Assembly (NCBI GenBank): GCA_016788115.1 | Contig: JAEURR010000005.1 | Coordinates: forward strand, 62,001-126,000 | DNA length: 64,000 nucleotides | Direction of reading: 5' to 3' | Source of the DNA: Chthonomonas sp. | GTDB lineage: Bacteria > Armatimonadota > Fimbriimonadia > Fimbriimonadales > Fimbriimonadaceae | Part shown: piece by piece, positions 23,627-30,262 of the stretch | Layout of the letters: each line of letters opens with the position of its first letter | Numbering within the stretch: position 1 is the first letter of the stretch | Made by a program: the position numbers and the translations under genes | The notes under the pieces: generated by a model | What the model was told of the DNA's origin: nothing | Databases searched by the model: none | Seen by the model: the letters and a program-made list of their open reading frames with translations, nothing else

Positions 23627-24577
23627 ATGGTCTCGCCGATCCCACTCATCGTCAAACCGACCCCGTGCCACCGACTGGAACGGGCGAGCCAGCAGTTGGG
23701 CATCGACCTCTGGATCAAGCGAGACGATCTCACCGGTTTTGCCCTCGGCGGCAACAAGGGCCGCAAACTGGAGTACTTGATGGCCCAAGCCATGGCGGAT
23801 GGCTGCGACACCATCGTGACCTGCGGTGCAACCGAGTCGAACTTTATCCGGCAACTGGCCGCCGCCTGCGCGGTGTGTGGAATCCGGTGCGTGGCCGTCG
23901 TCATGGAGACCCCTTACGAAGACGGATTTGCCCCGCCGACCACCCCCCACACGGGCATTGGCAATCCGACCATCACCCAGCTCTTTGGCGCGGATATCCA
24001 CGTACTCCCGAACGGCACCTGGGACGCCCTTTTCGCGGCGATGGATGCCAAGTCGGCGGAACTCCAGCGTGGCGGGGCCAACGTTCACACGATCCCCATC
24101 GGCGGTAGTTCAGGACTCGGAGCTTACGCCTTCCTGCAGGCCGCCGACGAACTACCAGCGTGCGACGTTATCGTTTGCCCCACCAGCAGCGGCAGCACCC
24201 TGGCTGGGCTCCAGTTGGCCTTCGAGGGGTTCGCCACGCGTGTGATCGGCATCGCCGCCGATCCCGAGCCCGCTCTCAAGGACGATGTTTTGCGCGTGGC
24301 GAACGAACTCCGCGCGCTGCTTGAGTTGCCAGAGGTCGATGCCAGCACTTTCGATCTAAGGCGTGAGTTCGTGGGGCCTGGTTACGGGGTGCCCAGCGCA
24401 GAGGGCGATGCGGCCCTCCGCTGGCTGGCCCAGACCGAAGGGATACTGCTCGACCCCATCTACTCCGCCAAGGCCTTCGCGGGCCTGCTCGACATGGCAA
24501 AGAGAGGCGATTTCAACGGCGAAACCGTCGTTTTCTGGCACACTGGCGGGATCCCCGCGCTCTGGGCGTTCTGCTAG
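23627..24577 (+). CDS. D-cysteine desulfhydrase / ACC deaminase family PLP enzyme
   Basis: The 316-residue enzyme is a fold-type II PLP protein. The cofactor lysine is Lys44 in ALGGNKGRKLEYL, and the phosphate-binding loop is seen in PTSSGSTLAG. The family includes D-cysteine desulfhydrase (D-cysteine to pyruvate, sulfide and ammonia) and 1-aminocyclopropane-1-carboxylate deaminase; the sequence alone does not decide, though desulfhydrase is commoner outside plant-associated bacteria. The frame extends upstream but that portion is antisense to sdhC. Its stop shares four bases (CTAG) with the convergent DUF2752 gene. Confidence 0.85.
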   Translation: MVSPIPLIVKPTPCHRLERASQQLGIDLWIKRDDLTGFALGGNKGRKLEYLMAQAMADGCDTIVTCGATESNFIRQLAAACAVCGIRCVAVVMETPYEDGFAPPTTPHTGIGNPTITQLFGADIHVLPNGTWDALFAAMDAKSAELQRGGANVHTIPIGGSSGLGAYAFLQAADELPACDVIVCPTSSGSTLAGLQLAFEGFATRVIGIAADPEPALKDDVLRVANELRALLELPEVDASTFDLRREFVGPGYGVPSAEGDAALRWLAQTEGILLDPIYSAKAFAGLLDMAKRGDFNGETVVFWHTGGIPALWAFC

Positions 24578-25050
24578 CGACTGGTCACTTGGTGGAGCCA
24601 GGCGACGGGATTCTCCGAGCGGTAGTCGATCGCCGCGAAACGGACTGCCCCAAACAAGAAAAAGACCCACGCTGTGGCGACCATCCCCCGGTTGAAACCC
24701 GGAGTATCGGTGATGAACCGCTTCTTGCGCACGAACCCGTAGAGGCACATGAGCGCGGTCACGCCCCAAGCCAGAAAGAGGAGCGGGCCTAGTGGATGAG
24801 TTTGAAACGCCATGGCAAAATTGCCGTGTGCCACATGGGTGAAGCTCGTCGTCAGGCCGCAACCTGGACACGGGCGCCCGTACAGCAGGACGCTGGGGCA
24901 AGGTGGCAAACCCAACTGCTGGTGCGTTCCGTGGCCGAAGTGGCTTGGTCGCAGCCAAAGAGCGACGACAACCACGAAAACCCAACTCAGGAACCAATAA
25001 AGGTGTCCGAGGATCGATCTCCGATCGGGAGCGGGCTCAAAGCGGACCAT
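24574..25050 (-). CDS. DUF2752 membrane protein
   Basis: The 158-residue protein has three predicted membrane segments (about 17-33, 83-100, 118-140) and the DUF2752 cysteine signature CPSVLLYGRPCPGCGLTTS, with Cys51, Cys61 and Cys64. Function of the family is unknown; the Cys pattern suggests redox or metal binding at the membrane face. The ATG at 25050 overlaps the end of truB by 14 bases, so it is the last gene of the long minus-strand operon. Confidence 0.8.
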   Translation of the reverse strand: MVRFEPAPDRRSILGHLYWFLSWVFVVVVALWLRPSHFGHGTHQQLGLPPCPSVLLYGRPCPGCGLTTSFTHVAHGNFAMAFQTHPLGPLLFLAWGVTALMCLYGFVRKKRFITDTPGFNRGMVATAWVFFLFGAVRFAAIDYRSENPVAWLHQVTSR

Positions 25051-25909
25051 GGAGAAGCTCTCTTGGAATAACGCAATCCGGCTGAAGTCGGTTCTCTTGG
25101 ACTCGGGCCATGCTGAAAACATCGCCCTGTTCATCCAACAATGCCGCAAATCTACCCGCCACGGGGTACGGAGCGGTGATGTAGTTTCCATCCCGGACGC
25201 GCCGCACCTCCAGGTCGTTGAGTTCCACCATCGGAATCCCCCGCAGCGCGGACCGAAGTGGGATCAGTCGATCGGGGACGATATCCTCCAGCGAGACCGC
25301 ATCGTCTAGCGTGAACGATCCGACACTCGTTCGTCGCAGCGCGCTCAAGTGAGCACCGCAGCCAACCGCCTCGCCCAGATCGTTCGCAAGCGTCCGGACA
25401 TACGTGCCGCCGCTGCACACCACCCGGAATTGTGCGGTTTGCTCGCCGAATTCGCTCAGGTCGAAGGAGTCAATGAAAACGGTGCGTGGCTCTCGCACTA
25501 CTTCCTTGCCCTCCCGCGCCAGGGCGTACAGCGGCTGACCGTTCTGCTTAATCGCACTGAACATGGGCGGCACCTGCTGAATCTGGCCAAGGAACTGGAT
25601 CCTCTCAAGCAAGATGAGATCGCGGAGGTTTCTCGGGACTGCGCACGTCTTGACAATCTCCCCCTCTGCGTCGAGCGTATCTGTGGAGGCGCCAAACGTG
25701 ATCTCGCCTTCGTACACCTTGGGTTCCAGAGGCAAGTACTGCAGGAAACGCGTCGCCGCGCCAACGGCCAATACCAATACGCCTGTCGCCATGGGGTCCA
25801 AGGTCCCCGAATGCCCCACTCGGCGCGTGCCGAGCTTGCGTCGCGCTGCGTTCACCGCGTCGTGAGACGTGATGCCCTGCTGCTTATGGACTACGAGGAT
25901 TCCAAGCAT
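25037..25909 (-). CDS. truB: tRNA pseudouridine(55) synthase TruB
   Basis: The 290-residue enzyme converts U55 of tRNAs to pseudouridine. The catalytic Asp38 lies in GHSGTLDPMATGVL, and KVYEGEITFGASTDTLDAEG and CSGGTYVRTLANDLG are further family motifs. Length is normal. It overlaps nrnA by 19 bases. The nrnA-truB pairing is common downstream of nusA-infB-rbfA, but here the pair follows the DprE-like genes instead. Confidence 0.95.
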   Translation of the reverse strand: MLGILVVHKQQGITSHDAVNAARRKLGTRRVGHSGTLDPMATGVLVLAVGAATRFLQYLPLEPKVYEGEITFGASTDTLDAEGEIVKTCAVPRNLRDLILLERIQFLGQIQQVPPMFSAIKQNGQPLYALAREGKEVVREPRTVFIDSFDLSEFGEQTAQFRVVCSGGTYVRTLANDLGEAVGCGAHLSALRRTSVGSFTLDDAVSLEDIVPDRLIPLRSALRGIPMVELNDLEVRRVRDGNYITAPYPVAGRFAALLDEQGDVFSMARVQENRLQPDCVIPRELLHGPL

Positions 25910-26874
25910 AGACGCACGGCGGCAATGAGATCGGCTTCCGCCCGAGCTAGTGACCCATCAAAAGTAATGCCAGCGGCGTTGCGATGACCTCCGCCGCCAA
26001 ATTTCTGCGCAACGGTCGCGACATCGACCAGTCCACGCGAACGTAAGCTAGCGCGGACCATCTTGTCCGGCGCAGGTTGTCGCAAGATCGCCGCCACCCG
26101 CACTGTATCGATGCTGAGAAGTTCATTGACGAGCCCTTCCGTGTGCTGCTCCAGTGCGCCGGTCGAGGCAAAATCAGCGGCTTCCAGCACGCTCCAGGCG
26201 ATCGAACCGTCCTCGCTGATCTTCATACGATCTAGGCAGCGATTCAGGAGTTGCAGGCTCGCCAGGGGTCGTTTGCCGTACACCTCCTCGCCGATGCGCA
26301 CGATATCTCCGCCCGCGGCGAGCAAGTCGGCAACGGTGTGGAGCGACTCCTCAGTCGTGTTGCGATAACGAAAGCTCCCGGTGTCCGTCACGATCCCGGT
26401 CATCAAGCAGGTCGCCATAGCGGGGCTGATCGGTGCGCCGAGTTGCTTGATGATCCGGTACAGCACCACCGCCGTTGCGGGGGCGGCCACGTCCACGATT
26501 CGCAACGTCCCGGGCTCCTCATGGGGGACGTGATGGTCGATGATGACTAGTTCACGGCACTGCTCGAAGCTCGGCTGCGTACGGCCCAACCGGTGCAAGG
26601 CATCCAAATCCAGAACGATCCCCACGTCGTGAGAGCGCTCAGCTTCCAGCTTCAGTCGATCGAGACCGGGCAAGAAACCGAGGTTGTAGGGAGCGAGATT
26701 GTTGCAGATGAGCTCGTTGGGAATTCCGCGCGAATCCAGCAGGTGGCAGACCGCCAGTGCGGACCCCAAAGCATCGCCATCCGGGTTCAAGTGGGTGCCC
26801 ACTAGTACCGACTTTGCGCCCGCAACGACGGCGTCGAATCGCTCAGCAAGGCTCGCAAGGTTCGGTTCCAACAA
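25891..26874 (-). CDS. nrnA: DHH-family oligoribonuclease / pAp phosphatase (NrnA-like)
   Basis: The 327-residue protein has the DHH phosphoesterase metal motifs: His28, Asp32 and Asp34 (HLNPDGDALGS), DLDALHRLG, IIDHHVPHEE, TGIVTDTGSFRY, and the DHHA1 substrate loop GGGHRNAAG near the C-terminus. NrnA enzymes degrade short RNA oligomers and dephosphorylate pAp to AMP. Length is typical. It starts 5 bases after the DprE1-like gene ends and overlaps truB, so it belongs to the seven-gene operon. Confidence 0.92.
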   Translation of the reverse strand: MLEPNLASLAERFDAVVAGAKSVLVGTHLNPDGDALGSALAVCHLLDSRGIPNELICNNLAPYNLGFLPGLDRLKLEAERSHDVGIVLDLDALHRLGRTQPSFEQCRELVIIDHHVPHEEPGTLRIVDVAAPATAVVLYRIIKQLGAPISPAMATCLMTGIVTDTGSFRYRNTTEESLHTVADLLAAGGDIVRIGEEVYGKRPLASLQLLNRCLDRMKISEDGSIAWSVLEAADFASTGALEQHTEGLVNELLSIDTVRVAAILRQPAPDKMVRASLRSRGLVDVATVAQKFGGGGHRNAAGITFDGSLARAEADLIAAVRLCLESS

Positions 26875-26879
26875 GAAGA

Positions 26880-28223
26880 CTATACCGCCGTCGGGACCGT
26901 GAGCCCCAGGCGGTCCGACTGGGCTGTCGCTAACACCCCCGTCGGATCCCAGCGTGATTTGAACTCTCGGTACCGCTCCAGGGATTCCTCTCCGTAGGAT
27001 CGCCGCGCCTCGGCAGGAGTCATGATGGAGTCCTTCGCCAAGTAGAACTTGCCACCGGCATCGAGCACGATCTTCGTCATCTCGCGTAACAACGCGTCAA
27101 GCCCTTCGCGCCACTGGAAGTCCATCGCGAGTGAGAATCCGTCAACACAGTACGGGAAAAGCCCTCCTGCCGCGCGATGCCTCTTGAGCACCGCCAGATG
27201 GCTGACCAGCCCCGCGCTGCCCTGCATGCGAATCAGCTGCTCGAAGACCCCCAATGCGGCTTCCTTAGGGACAAACGGCTGGAACTGTACAAAACCACCG
27301 CCCTGCTGGTACGCCTGCTCCCAACCCGGAGCCGAATCGAGCAAGAACGAGAAGTCTGCCAAATACTGATCGAAGACATCGTCTCGGGTCATGGTGTACT
27401 TGGCGAGGTTTACCAAGGACATTCTCCGCCCCCGGGCAAACCAACGCATCGGCTTCCAGAGTTCGCTCTTCGAGACCCCCAGGATGCGAGTGGCTGGCTC
27501 GAGGACTTGCAGAACGGTGTCTGGCCGCGCTTGGGTGTACTCGGCGGCATGCACGACGCCTCGACCGCGTCGATACAAGTCGAGCCAGCCGACGGAGTAG
27601 TCTTTCGAATGCGCCTCGGCATCCACCTGCGCCAGGCTCTCCTCAAGACTGTCGGTCCGCAGGCAGAAAACGTGCAACTGATGGGTTGCCACCTTTTTGA
27701 GTTGAATCGTCAATGACACCGCAACGCCAAGCAGCCCCGCCGACCCACTCGCCGCGTCAAACTCGGGCGTACCCCGGTGCAGTTCGCGCAGCTCCCCATC
27801 GGGCGTCAGCCACCGGACAGAAAGCACGTGCTCCGCGAAACAGCCCGCTTTCCAGTGGTTCTTCCCGTGCACGTTCATCGCGAATGCGCCGCCGACTGTG
27901 ATCTTCGCCGTACCGGTCACGACAGGCAACCACCATCCGTCACTGATAACGGCTCGCCACAGTTGCGCCAGCGTCACTCCGGCATCGCACTCGACCACAC
28001 CGCTGGCTGGATCCCAGTTCGTAATCTGGTGCAATCCATCCAGCATCAAGACTCGGGGGCCATAGCAGGCATCGCCATAGCTCTTTCCCGCGCCGCGCAG
28101 TGCCCACGTGCCTCCCTCCTCCAGTGCGGCGCGAATCTGGCTTAAATCTCCCACCGACCGGCCGAGGACCGTCTCCCTCTCGCGCCCTCCAAAACCCCCA
28201 AGTTCGACGATGGGATCAGACAT
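26880..28223 (-). CDS. dprE1: DprE1-like FAD-dependent oxidase (decaprenylphosphoryl-ribose 2'-oxidase homologue)
   Basis: The 447-residue flavoenzyme resembles DprE1, which oxidises the 2'-OH of polyprenyl-phospho-ribose as the first half of epimerisation to arabinose. Visible are the VAO-type FAD-binding loop GAGKSYGDACYG, the GGAFAMNVHGKNHW segment typical of DprE1, and the AKDS motif with Lys397 matching the catalytic lysine region. It overlaps the DprE2-like gene by 8 bases and follows a UbiA-type transferase, the same three activities that act together in mycobacteria. The L-gulonolactone oxidase group is a more distant alternative. Confidence 0.85.
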   Translation of the reverse strand: MSDPIVELGGFGGRERETVLGRSVGDLSQIRAALEEGGTWALRGAGKSYGDACYGPRVLMLDGLHQITNWDPASGVVECDAGVTLAQLWRAVISDGWWLPVVTGTAKITVGGAFAMNVHGKNHWKAGCFAEHVLSVRWLTPDGELRELHRGTPEFDAASGSAGLLGVAVSLTIQLKKVATHQLHVFCLRTDSLEESLAQVDAEAHSKDYSVGWLDLYRRGRGVVHAAEYTQARPDTVLQVLEPATRILGVSKSELWKPMRWFARGRRMSLVNLAKYTMTRDDVFDQYLADFSFLLDSAPGWEQAYQQGGGFVQFQPFVPKEAALGVFEQLIRMQGSAGLVSHLAVLKRHRAAGGLFPYCVDGFSLAMDFQWREGLDALLREMTKIVLDAGGKFYLAKDSIMTPAEARRSYGEESLERYREFKSRWDPTGVLATAQSDRLGLTVPTAV

Positions 28224-28935
28224 TCAGCCGCCGGAAGATCGGACTGGGGATCGCGCGGATGACCGCGAACATCACCGCATGGACTGGCGAAAGATAGAAT
28301 TCTCCCGAACGCCGCGCTTTCTTCAAAATGATAGCCGCCGCCTTCTCGACCGGCATCATACGCTTCAGTCCCAGACCTCGCGTCATGTCGGTGTCCACCG
28401 GGCCGGGCTTGACCGTGACGACCGTCACACCATGCCGGACTAACCGATTGCGCATGGATTCCATGAAGGTCGCGAGGCCTGCTTTGCTCGCGTGATAAGC
28501 GGGCACCGCACGACGACCCCGGTCTCCCGCGACGCTGCCGATCGCCACCAACGTCCCCGTGCCCCTGGCCTGAAACTTTGGCGCAGCAGCATTCATCCAC
28601 GCCATCGCACCCGTCAAGTTCACCGCTACCGATTCGGCATCTGCGGCGGTATCGTAGACGTCGAGTCCCGGCCGAACCAGAATCCCCGTCGAATAGACCA
28701 CGAGATCAACTGGTCCCTGATCGGCCTCAATCTGCTCGAACAGCGCCTCGACTTCACCCACCGCGTGGACGTCGTGCTGGTAAACCCGCACGAGGTCCGA
28801 AGCGAGTTCGGCGAGCAGTTCCTCACGTCGGGCAAGTGCCGTCACCCGGCAGCCTTGCGCAGCGAGTTGCTTCACCAGCTCGCGGCCGATCCCCGAGCTC
28901 GCACCGACCACGATCGCGGAGTTCCACGCGCTCAT
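28216..28935 (-). CDS. dprE2: DprE2-like short-chain dehydrogenase
   Basis: The 239-residue SDR has the NAD(P) motif GASSGIG (11-17), catalytic Ser134, Tyr147 and Lys151 (YHASK). In context with the DprE1-like oxidase it should reduce the 2'-keto intermediate to polyprenyl-phospho-arabinose. The C-terminal hydrophobic stretch (AVMFAVIRAIPSPIFRRL) is also seen in DprE2-type enzymes. The sequence alone would allow other SDR functions; the assignment rests on the operon. It overlaps the UbiA-like gene by four bases and the DprE1-like gene by eight. Confidence 0.78.
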   Translation of the reverse strand: MSAWNSAIVVGASSGIGRELVKQLAAQGCRVTALARREELLAELASDLVRVYQHDVHAVGEVEALFEQIEADQGPVDLVVYSTGILVRPGLDVYDTAADAESVAVNLTGAMAWMNAAAPKFQARGTGTLVAIGSVAGDRGRRAVPAYHASKAGLATFMESMRNRLVRHGVTVVTVKPGPVDTDMTRGLGLKRMMPVEKAAAIILKKARRSGEFYLSPVHAVMFAVIRAIPSPIFRRLNV

Positions 28936-29813
28936 GAAGCCACCTGCAAAAATCCGATCCTCCAGCCTGCCATGGCCGCCACCGCGAGCACCACGAAGAG
29001 TACGAAGCTCACCATCAGTTGCCGGTCCCGGAAGAGTAGGAGCTCGGGCTCGTCGGTCTCCTCCGAGCCGTGCGCTAACAGCAAGTACCGGATGATCGTG
29101 AAGACAACCACCGGAACCGTCATGAGCAAAGTCGGATGGGCGCGCGCCGTTTCGCTCTCAATGGAGTAGAGCCCATACGATATGGCGGCGATCGTCGCAC
29201 TCAGCAGCATTAGCGCGTCCAGAGCCGAGCGCGTGTAGCCTTGCAGACTCGCCCGCGTGGCCCCGTCGGTTCCGAGGGTTATGAATTCGTGTCGCCGCTT
29301 GGCCACCGCCAAAAACAAGGCCAACGTGCCCGTGCAGTACAGCAGCCACGGCGAGATCGTGACCTGGATCGCAACCGCGCCGATCGCCGCACGGACCACA
29401 AACGCCATCGCTATGGTCATCACATCGACCCCTGCCAAATGCTTCAGCGCAACGTTGTACGCCACTTGCAAACCCATGAACACAGCGAGCATCGTGTGGA
29501 TCGGCAGCAACCAGCCCACTCCGATTCCAATCGCGAGTAAGAGGATCGCCAGGATCGTGGCCGCATCGGTCGAAATCTTTCCGCTCGCGATCGCCCGGAA
29601 CCGCTTCTTCGGGTGGCGACGATCTGACTCGATGTCCAGGAGATCGTTGGTCACGTAGACGGCCGAGCTCAACGCGCACAGTGCGATAAAGCTAAGAAAC
29701 GCGGCTTGAGTCGCCCCGGGAGTGTTCCAACCCGCCGTAAACAACCACGCGGCGAAGACCAATAGGTTCTTCGTCCACTGGCGCACCCGGATCAGGGATA
29801 GAACGGCCCCCAT
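28932..29813 (-). CDS. UbiA-family prenyltransferase, probable polyprenyl-phosphate phosphoribosyltransferase
   Basis: The 293-residue membrane protein has about eight or nine hydrophobic segments and the first UbiA Asp motif NDLLDIESDRRHPKKRFR (Asn56, Asp57, Asp60, Asp64). The HPKKRFRAIASG ending is characteristic of the Rv3806c/DppR-type branch that moves phosphoribose from PRPP to polyprenyl phosphate, rather than of quinone or heme prenyltransferases. Followed directly by DprE2- and DprE1-like genes, it completes the route to polyprenyl-phospho-arabinose. It starts 8 bases after the SRPBCC gene. Confidence 0.82.
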   Translation of the reverse strand: MGAVLSLIRVRQWTKNLLVFAAWLFTAGWNTPGATQAAFLSFIALCALSSAVYVTNDLLDIESDRRHPKKRFRAIASGKISTDAATILAILLLAIGIGVGWLLPIHTMLAVFMGLQVAYNVALKHLAGVDVMTIAMAFVVRAAIGAVAIQVTISPWLLYCTGTLALFLAVAKRRHEFITLGTDGATRASLQGYTRSALDALMLLSATIAAISYGLYSIESETARAHPTLLMTVPVVVFTIIRYLLLAHGSEETDEPELLLFRDRQLMVSFVLFVVLAVAAMAGWRIGFLQVAS

Positions 29814-29821
29814 GCGTTCGG

Positions 29822-30262
29822 TTAGTTAGCCTCAGCGCGGTGCTTGATCGCCGCCATCAGCGCTTCGATGTTCTTCGTGGCCAGTGAGTGGATCACCTTT
29901 TTCACCAAAGCCCCGAGCGCGGGGACGTTGTACTCGTAGTCCACGTGAGAGGTGAAGCGCGTATGCCCTTGTCCCTCATCTTTGAACTCCCAGTAGCCGG
30001 ACATCGAGTCGTAATCCCCCTTGAGCTGGACAAAATCGCAGCGGTTTCCATGCCATTTATCCTCTTGAGTCCAACGGACTTTCACATTGAACGCCGAGAT
30101 CACGCCGATCCACTCGCTCACAACCCGATCACCTTCGTCTTGCACGACCGTGAGCGACTTCACATCATCCATAAAGTCTGGAAACGACCGATTGTCACGC
30201 GCAATTTGGAGTACGCGATCAATCGGCGCGTGGATCAGCAGAGTGGTATCGATGGACGCCAT
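29822..30262 (-). CDS. SRPBCC-family (START-like) protein
   Basis: The 146-residue protein resembles the polyketide cyclase/dehydrase-like SRPBCC family: a helix-grip fold with the N-terminal strand ASIDTTLLIHAPIDRVLQIARDN and GYWEFKDEGQGHTRFTSHVDYEY. Members bind hydrophobic ligands such as lipids or quinones. I placed the start at ATG 30262, where the family pattern begins; the longer open frame upstream is not supported. It leads the operon of lipid-linked arabinose genes, so carrying a polyprenyl lipid is conceivable but unproven. A small hairpin (30271-30285) lies just upstream. Confidence 0.75.
   Translation of the reverse strand: MASIDTTLLIHAPIDRVLQIARDNRSFPDFMDDVKSLTVVQDEGDRVVSEWIGVISAFNVKVRWTQEDKWHGNRCDFVQLKGDYDSMSGYWEFKDEGQGHTRFTSHVDYEYNVPALGALVKKVIHSLATKNIEALMAAIKHRAEAN

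Follow-up and report, generated by a model that had tools for sequence, protein, structure and literature searches.

In the genome of Chthonomonas sp., a member of the Fimbriimonadaceae (Armatimonadota) and hence a non-actinobacterial host, three overlapping genes of the reverse strand encode the predicted enzymes of a lipid-linked arabinose donor route. They lie in a window of 64,000 nucleotides (assembly GCA_016788115.1, contig JAEURR010000005.1, positions 62,001 to 126,000), which is part of contig 5 of a 2.4-Mb genome, 97% complete and assembled in nine contigs. The row begins with a ubiA-like gene (28932..29813, 293 aa), whose product is predicted from structure (PDB) and NCBIfam matches and from kept phosphoribosyl pyrophosphate (PRPP) residues to be a polyprenyl-phosphate phosphoribosyltransferase (PPPRS, or DPPRS, of the Rv3806c family). 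It continues with a short-chain dehydrogenase/reductase (SDR) gene (28216..28935, 239 aa), a predicted DprE2-like 2-keto reductase partner, and with a dprE1-like gene (26880..28223, 447 aa) for a predicted flavin adenine dinucleotide (FAD)-dependent polyprenyl-phosphoryl-ribose 2'-oxidase. The first two genes overlap by 4 bases (ATGA) and the last two by 8 bases, and nrnA, truB and a DUF2752 gene come after dprE1. Coordinates, strand, motifs, overlaps, the nrnA-truB succession and the non-actinobacterial host are all as described in the first-pass annotation. We put at about 0.72 the probability that the trio makes polyprenyl-phosphate-linked arabinofuranose and that this sugar follows the whole route proposed below, to exopolysaccharide (EPS).

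The UbiA-like protein carries the motifs N56-D57-x-x-D60-x-x-x-D64 and HPKKRFR, and its best solved structure is Mycobacterium tuberculosis Rv3806c (PDB 8j8j, E-value 3.9e-38). It scored 217 bits against NF008977 (decaprenyl-phosphate phosphoribosyltransferase), versus 19 to 44 bits (top 43.7) for unrelated UbiA families, and a family profile gave 208 bits against 44 for other prenyltransferases. With the PRPP- and Mg-binding residues of Rv3806c taken from PMC10994848, R22, K28, Y70, N73, D77, K87, R90, Q135, Y138 and K143 proved identical in the window protein, the sole change among the PRPP-site residues being Tyr157 to Phe, which is tolerated and also found in some mycobacteria. Scores and kept residues thus support the initial assignment to the phosphoribosyltransferase branch, far from both quinone and heme O prenyltransferases. 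Scanning genome contigs with a UbiA alignment recovered relatives (a scan with the single UbiA sequence returned none). In quick trees, supported by the SH-like approximate likelihood ratio test (SH-aLRT) only, UbiA formed an order-wide clade of its own (95%) apart from the actinobacterial one, and a recent transfer from mycobacteria was rejected on this ground. Phosphoribosyl transfer is the firmest predicted step of the route.

The flavoprotein, with its HGKNHW and AKDS motifs, matched DprE1 in the PDB over its whole length (E-value 1.3e-45). A profile of the family reached 359 bits to DprE1, again full-length, whereas the best chain other than DprE1 scored 74 bits and matched in the N-terminal FAD domain only. 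Eleven of the 11 core positions (H132, K134, W230, L317, Q334, Q336, L363, V365, K367, Y415 and K418) were invariant in 35/35 homologues. In the DprE1 tree, which has long branches, the window type fell with DprE1 of M. tuberculosis, M. smegmatis and Rhodococcus, away from three FAD oxidases; the protein is also far from the sugar-lactone oxidases, in keeping with the DprE1 branch first suggested for it. Among 14 control genomes the DprE1 model matched that of Corynebacterium glutamicum only, and 45 of the 121 genomes drawn from the phylum held a match with an E-value no higher than 1e-40, the scores falling into two classes. One active-site position differs throughout: Cys387 (M. tuberculosis numbering), the covalent target of benzothiazinones, is Ala in the window protein and in all 34 homologues, a natural change that predicts insensitivity to covalent DprE1 inhibitors.

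The SDR displays a GASSGIG motif and the residues Ser134, Tyr147 and Lys151, all three invariant in 33 homologues, and its gene adjoins DprE1 in nearly all loci, in the Fimbriimonadaceae (f1, 37 genomes), in the sister family f5 and in other phyla. In the SDR tree, the DprE1-paired SDRs, including Rhodococcus DprE2, separated from other SDRs with 100% SH-aLRT, with long branches and an unsure inner order. By profile, DprE2 ranked only fifth among its PDB matches. The earlier description of a DprE2-like SDR with an intact triad therefore holds for the residues, the pairing and the tree position, and not for the family score, so that we call the protein DprE2-like only.

UbiA, SDR and DprE1 genes are contiguous in 23/37 f1 genomes, and because their products are only ~40–55% identical across the family and match the corresponding structures and families, the trio is not a chance assembly. 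A strong DprE1 match (>100 bits) was found in 35/37 f1 genomes; several relatives are fragmented metagenome assemblies, in which an absence from a single genome means little. In nine f1 genomes, another, more canonical DprE1-SDR pair replaces the window type, the two never occurring together; where the locus was read, DprE1 comes first and the SDR gene second, both at a distance from UbiA. In the DprE1 tree, seven of the nine (loci L039-L042 and L063-L065, from genomes G005, G026, G018, G006, G012, G034 and G009) grouped with pairs from cyanobacteria, Bacillota and Bacteroidota, and the SDR tree included six; for G024 and G032 the assignment is by score alone. Two strong DprE1 copies were found in no f1 genome, the two matches in G029 being pieces of one gene. 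The UbiA of two replacement-pair genomes nests within f1 and is thus vertical. Since a more canonical pair takes the place of a divergent one while the rest of the pathway is unchanged, this replacement is the best evidence arguing for a single reaction shared by both pairs. Among other PPPRS homologues (L100-L157, from Chloroflexota, Zixibacteria, Paenibacillus, Brevibacillus, Myxococcota and others), nearly all were without DprE1 in the ~6 kb read, L129 and L102 being the exceptions.

Candidates for the membrane steps come from elsewhere in the chromosome. The host genome (G000) encodes a HAD-GtrA fusion on contig C3 (G000:C3:26034-27125, L001:880-1974); one alignment spans both parts in 33/37 f1 genomes, with the same MltG gene ahead where read. 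GtrA directly follows UbiA in the four sister families f2, f3, f4 and f5, and in f5 the order MltG-HAD-UbiA-GtrA, with HAD and GtrA as separate genes and DprE1-SDR elsewhere, was found in 7/7 loci read. Further afield, UbiA, GtrA, DprE1 and SDR stand in a row on plasmids of Rhizobium, Paracoccus and Tateyamaria, a HAD domain fused to UbiA being confirmed in Rhizobium; GtrA, DprE1, DprE2 and an AftA-type gene are together in Rhodococcus, as are UbiA, HAD and GtrA on a Lactococcus plasmid. Because of these neighbourhoods across phyla and of the fusion itself, the GtrA part is the best flippase candidate, a fair prediction; according to Kelly et al. (PMC11127046), a flippase role of GtrA in this route is without direct experimental proof. 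A 5'-phosphatase function of the HAD domain is only possible, three PAP2 proteins of the genome being alternative candidates. Literature searches turned up no relevant paper on either a HAD-GtrA fusion or arabinose in armatimonads.

The gene neighbourhoods also indicate where the sugar may go. UbiA has an exosortase gene no more than 10 kb away in 13/13 f2, 1/1 f3, 1/1 f4 and 10/33 f1 genomes having both; in f2, f3 and f4, which lack DprE1, UbiA-GtrA is followed by the exosortase gene. In all, four families supply 25 genomes with UbiA beside exosortase or exopolysaccharide genes, far more than chance would give by our own estimate of <1% for such a 10-kb distance in a ~3-Mb genome, genomes being treated as independent. 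Priming transferase, Wzz-, Wza- and Wzx-like neighbours were identified by visual inspection rather than by profile. The host's own exosortase (C6:354491) is beside sugar-nucleotide and glycosyltransferase genes. EPS decoration, first offered as a guess, gains independent support from these neighbourhoods and would be the likeliest use of the lipid sugar. For the transfer itself, GT87 and PMT_2 searches of the host genome yielded four glycosyltransferase candidates of the GT-C fold, one alone being linkable to the pathway: a PMT_2-type gene conserved in f1 (G000:C7:81859-83286). Only two loci, L202 and L098, place it within 10 kb of UbiA; in most relatives its neighbours are secreted-protein and pyruvate-dehydrogenase-like genes (recognised by eye) rather than EPS genes. 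Its AlphaFold model (pLDDT, the predicted local confidence, 90) adopts the general GT-C fold, with Z scores of 24 for AglB, ArnT and Pmt4 and 19 for AftB, a match that does not reveal the donor and leaves its predicted role in the pathway tentative.

This ambiguity bears on the alternative that best survives, namely that the donor is real and serves another acceptor, through glycosylation of pilin or another protein, or as part of a wall glycan. The P. paraeruginosa route serves pilin (PMC12369383) and the Azorhizobium route Nod factors (PMC2443382), and the fold of our candidate, common to ArnT, Pmt and oligosaccharyltransferases, does not fix the acceptor. Given the recurrent association of UbiA with exosortase genes, we consider another acceptor rather unlikely.

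Several observations weigh against the proposed arabinofuranose-to-EPS route. The UbiA-like protein, the SDR and the DprE1-like protein all fall under their NCBIfam equivalog cut-offs, UbiA by 17 bits (cut-off 234), the SDR with 114 bits against 250 for NF053786, the third in its family list, and the flavoprotein with 249 bits against 500. The DprE1 cut-off seems to be set for actinobacteria: C. glutamicum passes it, and the best armatimonad DprE1, at 497 bits, stops just short. No phosphatase, flippase or transferase gene is present at the trio locus, these functions being encoded elsewhere, so that the "complete" set announced in the first-pass annotation was overstated; the EPS cluster and GT-C candidate of the host are likewise on contigs other than that of the trio, and UbiA is near an exosortase in 0/6 f5 genomes. 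The HAD domain, moreover, may be a phosphatidylglycerophosphate (PGP) phosphatase, because a PgpA search of the genome found none and because HAD is present where PPPRS is absent. The latter case is G030 (L189), a reduced f1 member (1.5-Mb, 97% complete), in which MltG-HAD is kept and from which PPPRS, DprE1, GtrA, the GT-C candidate and the exosortase are jointly missing, a shared loss that in itself speaks for the proposed route.

Finally, the window DprE1-SDR pair belongs to a divergent branch, separate from characterised DprE1/DprE2 (230–305 bits versus 430–497 for canonical-like armatimonad DprE1), and its flavoprotein differs at Cys387, as said, and by Tyr314-Ser and Asn385-Ser changes, with which another epimer is possible. 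The same lipid donor route could then give another epimer or a keto-sugar, e.g. a xylo- or 2-keto-pentofuranose, all the more as Kelly et al. (PMC11127046) show other epimerases turning this ribose donor into xylofuranose (Xylf). The Xylf enzyme described there is, however, a single GalE-like SDR and not a flavoprotein-SDR pair, the catalytic and flavin-contact residues of the window type are invariant, including Lys418 and His132, and canonical-like pairs substitute for it in nine f1 genomes. We therefore judge a different sugar improbable, and less credible than a different acceptor. A mycobacterial-type wall arabinan built by EmbABC/AftA-like enzymes, which would share the donor chemistry only, is very improbable: the host genome, searched for C-type arabinosyltransferases of the EmbABC type, gave no Arabinose_trans (PF04602) match at E up to 1 in a search that finds C. 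glutamicum, AftA, AftB and AftD profiles not being run. Weakest of all is the view of UbiA as a quinone, heme O or phospholipid prenyltransferase beside unrelated oxidoreductases, suggested by the fold common to UbiA proteins and by unspecific SDR scores, and contradicted by the family scores, the PRPP-specific residues and the conservation of the trio.

Gene identities, conserved active sites, co-occurrence and gene neighbourhoods lead us to infer the activities, sugar, direction and acceptor of the arabinofuranose route as follows. UbiA would move ribose-5-phosphate from PRPP onto polyprenyl phosphate, the firmest step, and a phosphatase encoded elsewhere, tentatively the HAD of HAD-GtrA or one of the three PAP2 proteins, would take off the 5'-phosphate. 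The DprE1-like flavoprotein would then oxidise C2 and the SDR reduce the ketone from the other face, converting ribose to arabinose on the lipid, a step in which we have good confidence. With fair confidence, the GtrA part of the fusion would carry the lipid-sugar across the membrane, where the GT-C enzyme would, again tentatively, hand it to an exosortase-associated exopolysaccharide. The product is very probably the same kind of lipid-carried pentose, arabinose, as the one from which tuberculosis bacteria build their wall. A broader scenario, which we hold as possible and rather doubtful, is that of an old armatimonad polyprenyl-phospho-pentofuranose route tied to exosortase EPS, in which families without DprE1 would use the ribose donor, Fimbriimonadaceae and f5 would make arabinose with a divergent DprE1-DprE2 pair, and HAD-GtrA would both dephosphorylate and flip.

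If true, the proposed route would bring lipid-linked pentofuranose chemistry into a poorly studied phylum and connect it with exosortase-associated EPS, whose glycans are little known. Predicted ribose-only lineages beside arabinose-making ones in a single order, together with the replacement of epimerase pairs, would provide natural tests of the sugar-setting genes, and the HAD-GtrA fusion and the UbiA-GtrA neighbourhoods both speak, at the genetic level, for a flippase role of GtrA in the route.

Around the trio, the DUF2752 membrane-protein gene (24574-25191) is kept 3' of nrnA-truB in 11 loci. An SRPBCC gene (29822-30262), included in the span initially delimited, was set aside as unrelated; it stands beside the trio in no relative examined.

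Among known systems, the mycobacterial pathway (Rv3806c, Rv3807c, DprE1 Rv3790, DprE2 Rv3791 and Rv3789) is the closest mechanism, with the same three enzyme types and conserved active sites, and GtrA adjoins DprE1-DprE2 in Rhodococcus. The armatimonad proteins nevertheless share only ~30–32% identity with their mycobacterial counterparts, have Ala for Cys387 of DprE1, and occur without EmbABC and without a PAP2 gene beside UbiA, with a HAD-GtrA fusion and a likely end use in EPS rather than arabinogalactan. Kelly et al. 2024 (PMC11127046) generalised the route as PPPRS, flippase and GT-C, with DprE1/E2 homologues in arabinofuranose (Araf)-containing systems of diverse bacteria. The armatimonad route follows the same logic as these three-component pentofuranose systems, whose parts share one cluster, but has only PPPRS and the epimerase pair at the locus, the parts being dispersed over the chromosome and associated with exosortase/EPS genes, with GtrA in place of a MATE flippase and a PMT_2-type GT-C candidate. 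Non-actinobacterial sets comparable to the armatimonad one are Azorhizobium noeCHO, for which synthesis of a D-arabinose precursor has been proposed (PMC2443382), and the Rhizobium/Paracoccus UbiA-GtrA-DprE1-SDR operons; in these sets all parts stand in one operon with HAD fused to UbiA (as confirmed in Rhizobium), whereas the armatimonad HAD forms a fusion with GtrA away from the trio. Pilin arabinosylation in P. paraeruginosa is a documented UbiA-based D-Araf donor route outside actinobacteria (PMC12369383), its acceptor being pilin via TfpW, where that of the armatimonad is likely EPS. Complete trios also occur in Rhizobium, Paracoccus, Tateyamaria, Kovacikia, Flammeovirgaceae, Persicobacter and Ammoniphilus, so that a trio outside actinobacteria is not unusual, and the surprise expressed in the first-pass annotation is mostly answered by the literature. 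To this already known type of pathway, our analysis adds an armatimonad branch, the HAD-GtrA fusion, the exosortase-EPS link and the swap of epimerase pairs.

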